Assembly: GCA_001600495.1 (NCBI GenBank)
Contig: BCKE01000027.1
Span: forward strand, 225,371-289,370
Reading direction: 5' to 3'
Source of the DNA: Pilasporangium apinafurcum
Lineage: Eukaryota; Oomycota; Peronosporomycetes; Pythiales; Pythiaceae
DNA length: 64,000 bases
In this document: positions 30,536 to 49,211 of the stretch, piece by piece
How the letters are laid out: each line of letters starts with the position of its first letter
How positions within the stretch are numbered: position 1 is the first letter of the stretch
The notes under the pieces: model-generated
What the model was told of the DNA's origin: nothing
Databases searched by the model: none
The model's input: the letters and a program-made list of their open reading frames with translations, nothing else
Translations under genes and position numbers: made by a program

Positions 30536-32289
30536 GGTCAAGAGAGAGAGAGAGAGATGGAGGAGATTAGCGCGAATGTGGAGATTCGAATCTACTGCTG
30601 CGCTGCTTGGATGATGAAATCGGTTTTTGTGAGAATGGCAGATTATGGGGGAGATGCACAAACACGGAGAATTAAATTATAATATTAGAGAGTTCGTAAA
30701 ATTATAAAACAGCTTAGTGCATACTGTTTTATACAAGTTTGTATTAACTGAACAAGATGAACTCTCTTCTTTTGTTGAATATTTAAATTTATTGATTTTT
30801 CTCCGTTTAAACCTTTAAGAAAACATATCAACTTTTACAGAAAAGAAATGTGCGGATGAAACGCCTCGAGATTCCCGTTCCGGAAGTGCAGATCCCTCTA
30901 TTCGTATCATCAAAGGAATTCGCTTATGCATCTAAACAAATTTCTTTTGCTCGCTCAGTTGGCAAGTAGAATAAACCGAGCAATACGCACACTTGGTGCA
31001 AACATTGGAGCGAGATGTTGGTCACGCGCAGATAGTTTTTCAAATGTGAGCGAGATGAAGATATCAAACTGCTGTTGCTAGTCACAAGTTGGAGAATCTA
31101 CACGCCACAGAGTGTAATATTTTAGAATGTTGCGTATCTGGTCGCGTCTACAAAGGTTTGAAACGACTTCGCTGTGTTGCCAACGTCTGCATGTTCATGT
31201 CCACCCTTTAGCAACGATTTCGTACATTTCTACAATTCAAAAGCTTTCGAACTTGTACAATCCGTTACGGTAAAGAAAATTATAGTTATTTAACCGTAAT
31301 GTATTCTATTTCAAAGAGTGCCCTAATTTACTTTCAGATCGCATCCAATTTTTTCAGTTTAGATATTATCCGGACATTAAAGCTAAAATTGGTATACAGC
31401 ATAATGAACAGGTAAATTTTACTTTACTGCATTTTTACCAAGTAAAATTTAAGATAGCAAAAAAATTTTAAACATGAATTTTGACGTTTAAGCAGCGCTT
31501 TGCGCAAATTTCATTAACTGATAGATTGAACACAGCATTTTACAAAAGTAGAACTTCAACGTCCCGACGTTTTTTCAGTTTTGGTGATGAACAAAAAATA
31601 TCACATAAATGAAGAGGTTGCGAGACGAGGAAGTGCACTTGCTCTCTTCATAGTCATCATGCTTCTGAAGTACTATGTATATTCCTTACTGAGAGAAATG
31701 ACGACAGGAAAGTGCATCACTTGGTCGAAATCATAGCGAAGATCAGCAAGCACACGGCCACCATTACTCAATGTGTGCAGAAGTTTTCTAGAAGGAAGCT
31801 CATGGTGCCCCATTCTTTCTTGTAAGCCTTGATTAAAAATGAATGAAATACGCCCAAACAAGAAGATGATGGAGATGAAAACAGAAGCTAGATATGTTTC
31901 ATGAATACCGACAGATGCATGCAACCAACGCAACAGCAGATTTAGCAAAGAGTAAATGGTGAAAAATGATTGCCATTCAAGAGCTTGCTAGTAAATAATA
32001 TGGGTTCATTGGTGCATTTTCGCGATATGCGTCTACAGTAATGATAGTATTTAGCGTTCATGCTCGCGTCAAACTAACTGTAAAACTAACCTTTTATTCT
32101 GCGCTTTGAGCACTCAATTCTTTGAAGGGTAATATCTGCTGAGCTAAGGGAAAGTGTAGGTGGAAAATATCGGTAGTTAACTCAAGATTGGAGCCACTAT
32201 ATTGCATATCTAGTTGCGCCATCTCGAGGCAAAGTGAGTGGCTTTTTGGTCCTATTTATCTCCCCTTATGAATTAGTTTTTTCTCTATT
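30536..32289. other. Long AT-rich non-coding stretch
   Basis: 1.75 kb of AT-rich sequence. It starts with the GA-repeat leader of the aminotransferase gene. The only ORF above 80 codons (minus strand, 31948-31673, hydrophobic FISIIFLFGRISFIF) has no recognisable motif and no splice partners I can support. This is the emptiest part of the window and ends at a decayed mobile element, so it may be relic transposon sequence. Confidence 0.5.
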
Positions 32290-32330
32290 GTTACATATAA
32301 TAGTTTCTAGAAGAAACCAACCACTTCAAC

Positions 32331-32931
32331 AATCCTGGTCGAAGTGATCGCATAACACATTCTCTCCATGCAACTGACAACAAGGTAAGGCCATCCGATT
32401 GATGGTAATGGCACGCAAAGAGCAGATCTCGAGGATTATGGCTACTGTTGTCTGTTGGTAGATCGTTGTTTGTCTCGGTTGTTTCAAAAAGAGTCCAAAC
32501 ACAAGCGCTATCGGTTGAAGAAAATGATTTGTCGAGTTTACCAACGGATGAAAGCGATGACGTCAGATATGCACCAAAAAGTCTCCAAGTGGCTGTTGGA
32601 CAACTACCATGAAGTACTTCTTCCATCTTTTGGGACTTTAGAGCTGATGTCCAAGCAAAAAGGAATTTCAAGTAAGACGTCAAGAGCAATCTTCACGTGG
32701 TTTCATTACAAGTTCAAGAAGCTACTGAAGCACGAGATGAAAAGGACTGGAGGACGCGTGATCAAATGTGAGGAACACTATATAATAAAAACTTGTTCTC
32801 AGTGTAGGAGAATCAGCCACGTGATGAAGCATCAGAAAGTCTTCGAATGTCCTCACTGCAAGTTCGTCCTTGATAGAGATGTCAACGCTGCTAGAAACAT
32901 CTTTCTCAAGAATGAACACCTACTCACCTAG
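32331..32931 (+). pseudogene. Broken TnpB/Fanzor-type RNA-guided nuclease gene
   Basis: The RuvC-I motif region reads N-P-G-R-S-D-R-I-T from 32331, where D-P-G-R is expected, so the catalytic Asp has become Asn. A frameshift near 32390 changes to the frame DGNGTQRADLEDYGY. The rest is open: RLKKMICRVYQRMKAM, the helix VSKWLLDNYHEVLLPSF, SSKTSRAIFTWFHYKFKKLL, the zinc ribbon TCSQCRRIS with CPHC, and RuvC-III LDRDVNAARNIFLKN, ending at TAG 32929-32931. The order bridge helix, RuvC-II segment, CxxC..CxxC ribbon, D-R-D-x-N-A is that of IS605 OrfB/TnpB and eukaryotic Fanzor. The missing N-terminus and the lost Asp make it inactive. Confidence 0.85.
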
Positions 32932-33017
32932 ATTCATCGAGTCCAGGTGTCGGAGATGGCTACTCCACGGTCGCCTAGTATTAACTAGCTTTTGCTAGTC
33001 AAATCGAACCCAAACAA
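32927..33017 (+). ncRNA. Candidate omega/guide-RNA-like 3' tail of Fanzor copy 1
   Basis: This segment overlaps the nuclease stop codon and is conserved in copy 2 until both sequences diverge. It begins with a stem CCTAGATTC / GAGTCCAGG around ATC (32927-32947, partly decayed here). It ends with a perfect 6-bp stem ACTAGC / GCTAGT with a TTTT loop (32984-32999). TnpB omega RNAs and Fanzor guide RNAs lie at exactly this place, overlapping the ORF 3' end and ending at the right element border. Transcription is unproven. Confidence 0.5.
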
Positions 33018-33040
33018 CAAAGCAGGAGCTCTTCCCTGAG

Positions 33041-33580
33041 TTACTCGTACGTTGGTATCTCTATGATCTCTCGAGATGAATCGCCTTCTCTTGCAAATGA
33101 ATCATCTTCTCTCACAAACGAATCGCCCTCCGAGTCAAAGATATCCACTACTTCTCGCTCTTGCGCTCCATGGCGTTCATCGTCGTCCTCTTCTTCATCA
33201 TCCTCATCTTCGTCCATGTCATCCTCTTCCATGTCATCCTCATCATCTTCTTCTTCTTCCTCATCCTCTTCTTGCCATATTTCTTCACCTTCAGCAATTA
33301 AACTATTACGCGCACCATTTCCCGATAGACTCGTGTCCATCTGACGTCGCGTCTCCTCCTGAAAACAGTTCTCGCGATGGAATTTCACCCCAATCGGCAC
33401 GGCCGCTTGACGCTCGACCAGTGACTGCACCATGTTCTCCAACGCTGCTTCCTCTCGATCCAATTCGTTAAGGTCCAGTGCGTACGCCTGCATCTCACCC
33501 ATGCGGTAGCTGCTGGCGCCATATAAATCACTGACCGTCGCCATCAGCGCAGGAAACGTTGCCGTTCGTGCATACTCCAT
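33041..33580 (-). CDS. Acidic protein of unknown function
   Basis: An open frame of 179 residues from the ATG at 33580 (MEYARTATFPALMATVSDLY). The first about 90 residues look helical and ordered (ASSYRMGEMQAYALDLNELD, NMVQSLVERQAAVPIGVKF). Then comes a tract of about 40 nearly pure Asp/Glu residues (33175-33280) and a Ser/Asp/Arg tail with repeated DSFxREGDS. The frame extends about 11 codons upstream without an ATG, so a 5' exon may be missing. The plus-strand shadow (Ser-rich) is an artefact of GAA/GAT codons. I do not recognise the family. It lies 130 bp from the divergent ubiquitin-like gene and only 24 bp from the right end of the Fanzor relic. Confidence 0.6.
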   Translation of the reverse strand: MEYARTATFPALMATVSDLYGASSYRMGEMQAYALDLNELDREEAALENMVQSLVERQAAVPIGVKFHRENCFQEETRRQMDTSLSGNGARNSLIAEGEEIWQEEDEEEEEDDEDDMEEDDMDEDEDDEEEDDDERHGAQEREVVDIFDSEGDSFVREDDSFAREGDSSREIIEIPTYE

Positions 33581-48400: not shown

Positions 48401-48462
48401 CGTCCTTCTAACTGTTCATGTATCGTAATGCACAATGTGATTATCCATACTATTAACCGTTA

Positions 48463-48548
48463 TTGTTTGGGTCCGACTTAACAAAAGCTAGCCTAGACTA
48501 GACACCGCGGAGTAAGCGTCTCCGATACCTGGACTCGATGAGTCCAGG
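48463..48548 (-). ncRNA. Candidate omega/guide-RNA-like tail of Fanzor copy 2
   Basis: Here the first hairpin is perfect: arms CCTGGACTC and GAGTCCAGG around a 3-nt loop (48528-48548). The second stem (CTAGC..TTTT..) is partly decayed, the reverse of copy 1. The intervening sequence is shared with copy 1 apart from scattered substitutions. The conserved end ACCCAAACAA marks the probable element border. Confidence 0.5.
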
Positions 48549-48753
48549 AGAGTAGGTGTTCATTCTTAAGAAAGATGTTCCTCGCAACATTGACATCCCT
48601 ATCGAGAACGAGCTCGCAGTGAGGGTACTGAAAGACTTTCTGGTGCTCGATCGCGTGGTTGATTCTCCCACACTGAGAACAAGTCTTTGTTGCAAAGTGT
48701 TCCTTACAGTCGTATGTATGATGCTTGCCTTCCTTTCGCATCAATACTACCAT
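48493..48753 (-). pseudogene. 3' fragment of a TnpB/Fanzor-type nuclease gene
   Basis: It encodes KCEEH-like YDCKEHFATKTCSQCGRINH, then VFQYPHCELVLDRDVNVARN and IFLKNEHLL, matching copy 1 closely. The second zinc knuckle CPHC has become YPHC, losing a ligand. The stop used in copy 1 (TAG after NEHLLT) is lost and the frame reads into the tail. Together with the missing N-terminus, this is a dead copy. Confidence 0.8.
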
Positions 48754-48790
48754 ACCACATTTTCTGGACAGTCACTTTGATTCTCCACGC

Positions 48791-49211
48791 ACTCGATCTC
48801 CTCGGGCATGCACTGTCATCGCTTCACATCCGTTCTTGAAAAGGAGAATGGCGCTCATTGCGGAGAATTGGAAACAAGTTTCTGCTTCTATCGATAGAGA
48901 GGAAAAAATACGTCAAAGTATATCCAACCGGTGGGAGAAGTGGGGGAATAAAGGTTAAAAAAAGCAGGTTTGCTTATATAACTCCGTTTATTGTGATCAT
49001 TCACAACACCATTATCATTTCAAGCAGATAATTTTTGATTAAGCAAAATAAATGGGGAATACATACACACGCAATGTCAATCCATAGGACCTTCATACAT
49101 CATTCTCGGCCGACACGACTAACCGATTAGTATTTCTCCGTTCGGAATGGACACTGGTGCTGTAGATCAAAAAAATCTGGCATCGCGGGAATCGCTGCCA
49201 CTCGGTCGGGT
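48791..49211. other. Intergenic region with a relic of the SYLF zinc ribbon
   Basis: 49130-49211 repeats the last about 70 bp of the SYLF gene. The minus strand reads like TEWQRFPRCQ-FLIYS, compared with TERQRCERCQNFLVYS in the gene. This is a degraded tandem duplicate of the C-terminal zinc-ribbon codons in the 3'UTR. The rest (48791-49129) shows nothing recognisable. Confidence 0.6.

Follow-up and report, generated by a model that had tools for sequence, protein, structure and literature searches.

Does the conserved sequence behind a decayed Fanzor/TnpB-type gene in the oomycete Pilasporangium apinafurcum belong to a guide RNA? The gene lies in the window analysed here, a 64-kb stretch of DNA (C27:225371-289370 of the 36.5-Mb assembly), in which an earlier note had seen two dispersed copies of the element and had proposed a guide RNA at its 3' end. 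Comparison with the relatives in the genome leads us, with a probability of about 0.78, to read the family tail as a Fanzor2 guide-RNA scaffold that extends from the gene end to the right end of the element, the two window copies being dead, decayed members. They contain the following features.

32240..33078, plus strand: copy 1, a decayed, internally deleted type A Fanzor2-like element, its edges placed by comparison with relatives
32455..32931, plus strand: remnant C-terminal part of the Fanzor2-like nuclease, 158 amino acids (PF07282, E 3.5e-18)
32929..32931, plus strand: premature stop TAG, a TGG in longer copies (L039 and P0002 read through)
32927..32947, plus strand: hairpin 1 (9-bp arms around a 3-nt loop), in which one pair is mismatched and one is G-U; coding in relatives
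32951..32967, plus strand: hairpin 1b (CGGAG/CTCCA, one mismatch), homologue of the family D loop-to-end hairpin
32984..32999, plus strand: hairpin 2 (ACTAGC-TTTT-GCTAGT), from the sequence and pair counts
32986..32988, plus strand: usual family stop TAG, within hairpin 2, placed by the frame of L039 (...SSSLS and stop)
33000..33078, plus strand: remaining tail to the right end, overlooked in the earlier note and found by alignment to relatives
48453..48958, minus strand: copy 2, a type B element reduced to 506 bp by internal deletion, TTAA at both edges
48462..48559, minus strand: tail of copy 2 (covariance-model match of 99.6 bits)
48528..48548, minus strand: hairpin 1 of copy 2 with perfect 9-bp arms, from the sequence and the covariance model

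The Fanzor/TnpB identity proposed for the gene was borne out. The frame at 32455-32931 carries the Cas12f1-like_TNB domain (PF07282) and has the TnpB-like protein L79 as its best solved relative (E 2.4e-15), which we take to be a mimivirus Fanzor2-type protein; no chain among the solved-structure matches at E<=0.01 is named Fanzor. In the longer relatives L039 and L105, PF07282 and PF12323 (HTH_OrfB_IS605) were above cut-off and PF01385 was below its cut-off of 30.5 bits (29 and 19.3 bits, respectively). A genome search with PF00239, for which 15 of 15 candidates were scored, gave three matches (C62, C55, C1), every one of them within a family copy that also bears the nuclease; the recombinase frames are interrupted in the copies seen. 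L100 has a recombinase part, called Resolvase with E 2.1e-6, and the nuclease start in a different, overlapping frame. Such a combination of nuclease and serine recombinase is the IS607 arrangement described for some Fanzor2 elements in parts of PMC3627910. Three signs, the L79 relative, the HTH_OrfB_IS605 domain and the IS607-type serine recombinase in three copies, suggest that the family is Fanzor2-like rather than Fanzor1. The Fanzor1 reading was not preferred because of the best solved relative and the linked recombinase. Fanzor1 is characterised by kinked REC2 helices, REC/WED insertions and residence in a non-IS607 transposon, and the recombinase speaks against it here.

Some further frames were recorded separately. 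At 3620-4033 of L052, on the minus strand, what we read as a serine-recombinase-like frame (YMQVSSKSQSDDLERQVELLRAW) stands at and beyond the right end of the Fanzor copy in the opposite orientation; it is absent from the PF00239 match list. L109 (C135:16000-19000) represents another Fanzor/TnpB-like family, with a 691-codon open frame free of N that has IGIDPGVSTFLSGY and a C4 zinc ribbon; L048 and L090 are similar. The long open frames of some members (e.g. 8140, 2332) were set aside, as they cross N stretches in L106, L107 and L108. The window also encodes a palmitoyltransferase with 50-67% identity to those of Globisporangium, Pythium, Phytophthora and Lagenidium, which agrees with an oomycete source.

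The claim of two dispersed copies proved far too low. With 32290-33017 as a query against the genome, 733 first-look candidates were obtained, and 527 with 32900-33050; 40 were scored in each search, and 40 of 40 matched. The protein query gave 742 candidates, of which 150 were scored, yielding 163 matches. The window pair is thus a small sample of a Fanzor2/TnpB family with many members. No relative was confirmed among the 8 viral and 27 prokaryote pattern stretches checked, so that the covariation analysis drew on copies from this genome, and Rfam gave no match to the window at gathering score.

The 1.5 kb upstream of the tail were examined in 30 loci of the 32900-33050 search, the window and 29 others. 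The nuclease body (1504 bp) was whole in two of them (L016 and L029), and less than 150 bp of it was left in nine. A type B-like left end was seen by eye within the 1.5 kb in 14 of the 29 non-window loci. An open reading frame upstream of the tail was present in other genomic copies, in line with the proposed link between the two. The tail was also often found without the nuclease, as it would be if it belonged to an unrelated repeat, but these loci are internally deleted derivatives of the family, comparable to the S. punctatus ghost elements.

Copy 1 belongs to type A. Its left edge has GG before it and CTTTTTGG after it (by eye), and the matches of L002, L003, L004 and L007 start at 32235-32244. 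These four share with copy 1 the first form of the type A left edge, GG and then, past the edge, NTTTTGR; other type A copies have a second, CTYTATYCC-like form. The right edge was placed by eye near GAGATG (GAGGYG or close to it in the family), and the longest matches stop at 33074-33083. The tail had been thought to end at ACCCAAACAA. This end was rejected: 36 of the 39 other listed tail matches align on to 33043-33050 (query position 144-151), and some matches extend to about 33080. Types A and B diverge at ACCCAAACAA, type A extending by roughly 60 nt more, as far as GATCTCTTGAGGYG or a near match to it, and copy 1 to about 33078.

The beginning of the tail also had to be revised. L039, the longest lineage frame seen with 504 codons from stop to stop, ends in ...NEHLLSWTHQVQVSETPTPRSSSLS before its stop, and similar C-termini were found in other records (P0002, ...HLLTWTNRVRVSEMPTPWLSGIV; P0003, ...LLSWDLRSQVSEKPTPRLSQLQKKF). 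The TGG of SW in these longer copies corresponds to the TAG at 32929-32931 of copy 1, and the relatives continue with ...SWTHRVQVSExPTP... for 19 codons to the TAG at 32986-32988. Because the window stop is premature and the frame runs 19 codons further, hairpin 1 is coding in the longer copies, and a non-coding tail starting at the window stop was rejected. The sequence past this stop is indeed shared by both copies, as the earlier note had described, but 57 nt of it are coding in relatives. The C-terminal extension is not universal, since P0009 ends exactly in ...LLT like the window copy and P0004 has another extension.

The two perfect hairpins that had been pointed out were found as described, hairpin 2 in copy 1 (32984-32999) and hairpin 1 in copy 2 (48528-48548); hairpin 2 of copy 2 is short of 4 nt in its 3' arm. 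The tail covariance model matched the window at 32916-33018 on the plus strand with 114.3 bits and at 48462-48559 on the minus strand, matches that hold by construction since its alignment contained both window rows; no further full-length match was obtained within the 64 kb.

Two more distant lineages were informative for the tail. Type C has 44-57% protein identity to the window copy, and its tail has the feature order of type A, but a shortening by two bases ahead of hairpin 1 puts this hairpin into a different reading frame. In L044 and L054 of this type the frame is open through the tail and closes at a TGA that is part of the terminal CCTGAGG or a variant of it. Family D, with 38-41% protein identity to the window copy, is a young, intact-looking lineage. 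L105 has a 648-codon frame, which includes unread bases. The D tail is 132 nt long, runs from the stop codon to TTAGGYG and lies wholly after TGA TAA or after TGA alone. Compared with the tail of L105, those of 15 other copies are 95.8-98.6% alike, that of L083 is 93.4% and that of the diverged L088 is 84.7% alike. Among 20 regions, of which L090 is in another family and L089 has a right end that was not recognised, 18 distinct copies (17 D and the diverged L088) had a recognisable right end (TTAGGYG or TTGGGYG), and 18 of 18 have a flank of their own. At the left edge CCGC was seen by eye before the shared sequence in three copies, and neither TIR nor target duplication was seen by eye in the three copies with both edges. 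Target-adjacent motifs given in parts of PMC10432273 are CCG for NlovFz2 and TTAAN for GtFz1; that such motifs recur at left edges here, CCG in family D and TTAA in type B, is suggestive only.

The structure of the tail was then assessed. As single sequences the tails of the two window copies were weakly or moderately more stable than their shuffles: z was -0.6 (to 33078) or -1.0 (to 33017) for copy 1 and -2.9 for copy 2. Two tails of family D had z of -2.0 and -1.0, four of type C ranged from 0.3 to -1.9, and six of type A from 0.0 to -3.0. Covariation of the stems within types A and B, which the earlier note had looked to for support, was weak and on most measures not beyond shuffles, as expected of decaying copies from few sources. 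With a set of 32 A/B rows (30 of the 47 available plus two), RNAalifold kept hairpin 1 alone, with a covariation term of -0.04 and three pairs altered on both sides in some row. The three hairpins paired in 88.8% of the cells, which was matched by 83 of 500 shuffles; nine pairs with double changes were reached by 16 of 500, and the covariation score by 67 of 500. For 33 type A rows RNAalifold gave no structure (0.0 versus -0.4 in shuffles). The consensus fold of type C was -22.5 versus -9.8 +/- 2.6 in column shuffles, and none of 100 was as good.

Hairpin 1 was also compared between the lineages. Under a tree-based null for 54 rows (39 A/B, 15 C), 90.1% of the cells paired versus 69.7% expected, a value reached by 8 of 1000 simulations; the double changes and the G statistic were not beyond this null (218 and 167 of 1000). 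The inner pairs are T-A in 46 of 49 and C-G in 36 of 49 of the A/B rows taken together with the rows of inverted hairpin centre (flips), and the same pairs are C-G in 14 of 15 and A-T in 13 of 15 rows of the C group. Here 64 rows were kept and four dropped; L052, although of type A, is counted in the C group, and L069, although of type C, among the flips. The pairing of hairpin 1 is kept between lineages through two-sided changes, across the frame shift. For the inner five pairs of hairpin 1b, 133 of the 155 A/B cells (31 distinct) were paired, as were 47 of the 60 C cells (12) and 25 of the 25 D/E cells (5), and the hairpin's own register was the best of seven in all three groups. Pair 4 is G-C in 23 of 31 A/B, G-T in 9 of 12 C and A-T in 3 of 5 D/E rows; pair 5 is A-T in 30 of 31, G-C in 8 of 12 and A-T in 5 of 5, respectively. 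Of the 31 A/B rows, 30 have a mismatch at the outermost counted pair; the innermost, pair 6, is broken in half of the type C rows (6 of 12).

The loop of hairpin 1b was compared with the end of the element. In family D this loop is TCGCCTT, and the CGCCT within it is complementary to the AGGCG at the end of the element, with 5 of 5 pairs; in L088 the loop word is TGCCT and the end is as in D. The lowest-energy fold of family D has CGCCT-AGGCG as a closing stem and hairpin 1b unformed, the folding program being unable to show pseudoknots and hence both pairings at once. An IS607 TnpB is reported in PMC10711439 to require a pseudoknot between loop and end, and Fanzor2s are predicted there to have one. 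The chance of a 5-base complement for one loop in three registers is estimated at about 3 in 1024, a figure that leaves the inspection of several loops uncounted; the match was found post hoc. Among the 31 distinct A/B blocks, the fitting loop word (C or T)GCCT was present in 9 and the non-fitting GGCT in 11. Judged by these words, the loop-to-end pairing appears to be a property of D, of part of C and of some A.

Several rearrangements of the tail were observed. L002, L003, L005, L006, L033, L036, L037, L038, L044 and L057 lack the 5' arm of hairpin 1; the seven of them in the alignment have the same 10 columns gapped, as if deleted between two ACTC words. The centre of hairpin 1 is inverted (CATCG to CGATG, the 21-mer reverse-complemented) in L012, L019, L021, L026, L027 and L032r, also in L066 and partly in L069, which creates an in-frame TGA. 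It is inverted in 6 of 39 tree rows, for which 6 changes are needed and at least 4 are forced by well-supported branches; these rows did not cluster on the tree (500 of 500 shuffles as low). The flips are a recurrent hairpin-tip inversion. Inverted duplicates of the right part of the element, with both right ends outward, were found in L047 (C3:607.4-609.6 kb, arms 794 bp at 100%), L058 (C4:431.6-433.3 kb, 694 bp at 99.4%), L038 (C24:433.0-434.0 kb, 305 bp at 100%) and L017/L020 (C1:178.3-179.4 kb, 263 bp at 90%). They look like right-end/right-end derivatives, but may be an assembly artefact.

These observations bear on what else could have conserved the tail. It might be kept as the right end of a transposon, a binding site for recombinase or transposase with DNA hairpins that is needed for mobilisation, and involve no guide RNA. 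Its retention in the nine derivatives almost devoid of the nuclease body, the inverted hairpin centres, which point to a DNA hairpin, and the right-end duplicates with arms of up to 794 bp all fit such a site. We nevertheless regard it as unlikely to be the whole explanation, as the loop-to-end match and the hairpin layout fit the published reRNA design and the structure begins within the reading frame in types A to C; moreover, the roles of DNA site and guide RNA are not mutually exclusive.

Conservation past the window stop could also be due to coding alone, through the C-terminal extension of the nuclease. Similar extensions do occur in other records (P0002, P0003, P0027), but coding accounts for 57 nt only, the type C hairpin lies in a different reading frame with paired changes, and the tail of family D comes entirely after the stop, which makes this explanation very improbable. 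That the hairpins arose by chance in repeats, their identity reflecting common origin only, would agree with the weak A/B covariation and the modest z-scores; it is improbable given a hairpin layout common to lineages at 38-57% protein identity to the window copy, and a type C fold that 0 of 100 shuffles matched. The guide RNA proposed in the earlier note is thus retained as the best reading for the family, on the loop-to-end pairing, the cross-lineage hairpins and family D, and the reasoning from non-coding conservation and from an end at ACCCAAACAA is not.

As a guide-RNA scaffold the tail would work as follows. In working relatives the 3' part of the transcript would be the reRNA/omega RNA. 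Its scaffold hairpins would begin in the last nuclease codons (types A to C) or just past the stop (family D), and the scaffold would run to the right end, where AGGYG is predicted to pair with the loop of hairpin 1b. The bases past the element end, which are host DNA, would act as the guide. Nuclease and RNA would then cut the empty donor site, with the target-adjacent motif on the left flank and the guide match on the right, and repair from a full copy would restore the element. Transcription, processing, guide use, cutting and repair are the steps that we infer.

Copy 2 represents type B; its right edge was compared with 11 other type B copies and its left edge with eight. The right end is AACAATAACGG followed by TTAA and the left edge is TTAACCTTTATTCCCC, and the edges TTAACCTTTATT / AATAACGGTTAA form short inverted ends. 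Of the edges compared, 7 of 9 on the left and 9 of 12 on the right carry TTAA, the left count being without L045 (edge not found), L047 and L029. A tree built from 39 tails separates type B (13 rows) from type A (26 rows) with 99/98 support, the 13 B-side rows including L016, whose right edge was not placed. L024 combines a type B-like hairpin 2 with a type A right end. Type B is without the AGGYG end and without the distal part of the type A tail, and no transposase was found inside its elements. Piggybac-type DDE transposase matches are present in the genome at C5:658288, C40:263182 and C12:190893, and no CTYTATYCCCC end was found within the stretches examined around these three loci. L026 contains, at about locus position 880-945, a short palindromic element at a TTAA within a type A copy; its ends, CTTTATTCCCCAC / GTGAGGAATAAAG, resemble the type B left end.

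Tentatively, type B, made up of copy 2 and some dozen relatives, might be a Fanzor2 that a TTAA-inserting cut-and-paste transposon has recently captured, with the IS607-like types A, C and D persisting in the genome, the scaffold cut at ACCCAAACAA and TTAA replacing AGGYG; we consider this possible at odds well below even. Fanzor2* is the name used in PMC10711439 for a Fanzor2 carried by cut-and-paste transposons, in an alga and in molluscs. Type B is like these in being flanked by TTAA with short inverted ends and unlike them in that no transposase was found inside and the distal type A tail is absent.

The whole family resembles the IS607-type Fanzor2 elements described in parts of PMC3627910 and PMC10711439 in its TnpB-like nuclease with HTH_OrfB and zinc ribbon, in the IS607-type serine recombinase of some copies, and in that no TIR or TSD was seen in the three D copies with both edges; the loop-to-end match at the right end likewise agrees with parts of PMC10711439. 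It differs from them in its hundreds of first-look candidates in one oomycete genome, in the interrupted recombinase frames of the copies seen and in hairpins that overlap the coding end, the frames of L044 and L054 being open through the whole tail. With SpuFz1 and its ghost element Spu-1, as presented in parts of PMC10432273, the family shares a guide scaffold, here a putative one, between stop codon and right end and many short derivatives that retain it without the gene. SpuFz1, however, is a Fanzor1 with 30-nt inverted repeats according to the same source, whereas the nuclease here is Fanzor2-like and the tail overlaps the end of the reading frame in types A to C.

Fanzor proteins of Phytophthora, Pythium and Albugo are tabulated in parts of PMC3627910, and a P. 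cactorum Fanzor is modelled in parts of PMC10711439; no description of an oomycete reRNA was seen among the titles in the literature searched. The element is of a known kind, and the family in this oomycete is new. In conclusion, an oomycete Fanzor2 family is added that has many copies, a young, intact-looking D lineage in which the tail end is defined and followed by 18 different natural flanks, and older lineages for comparison, a natural series for guide-RNA architecture and for the survival of the scaffold without the nuclease. The family also suits asking about the fate of the scaffold when the nuclease moves between transposon types and, if the capture of type B is true, would give a side-by-side view of a scaffold end rewritten when the nuclease changes transposon.
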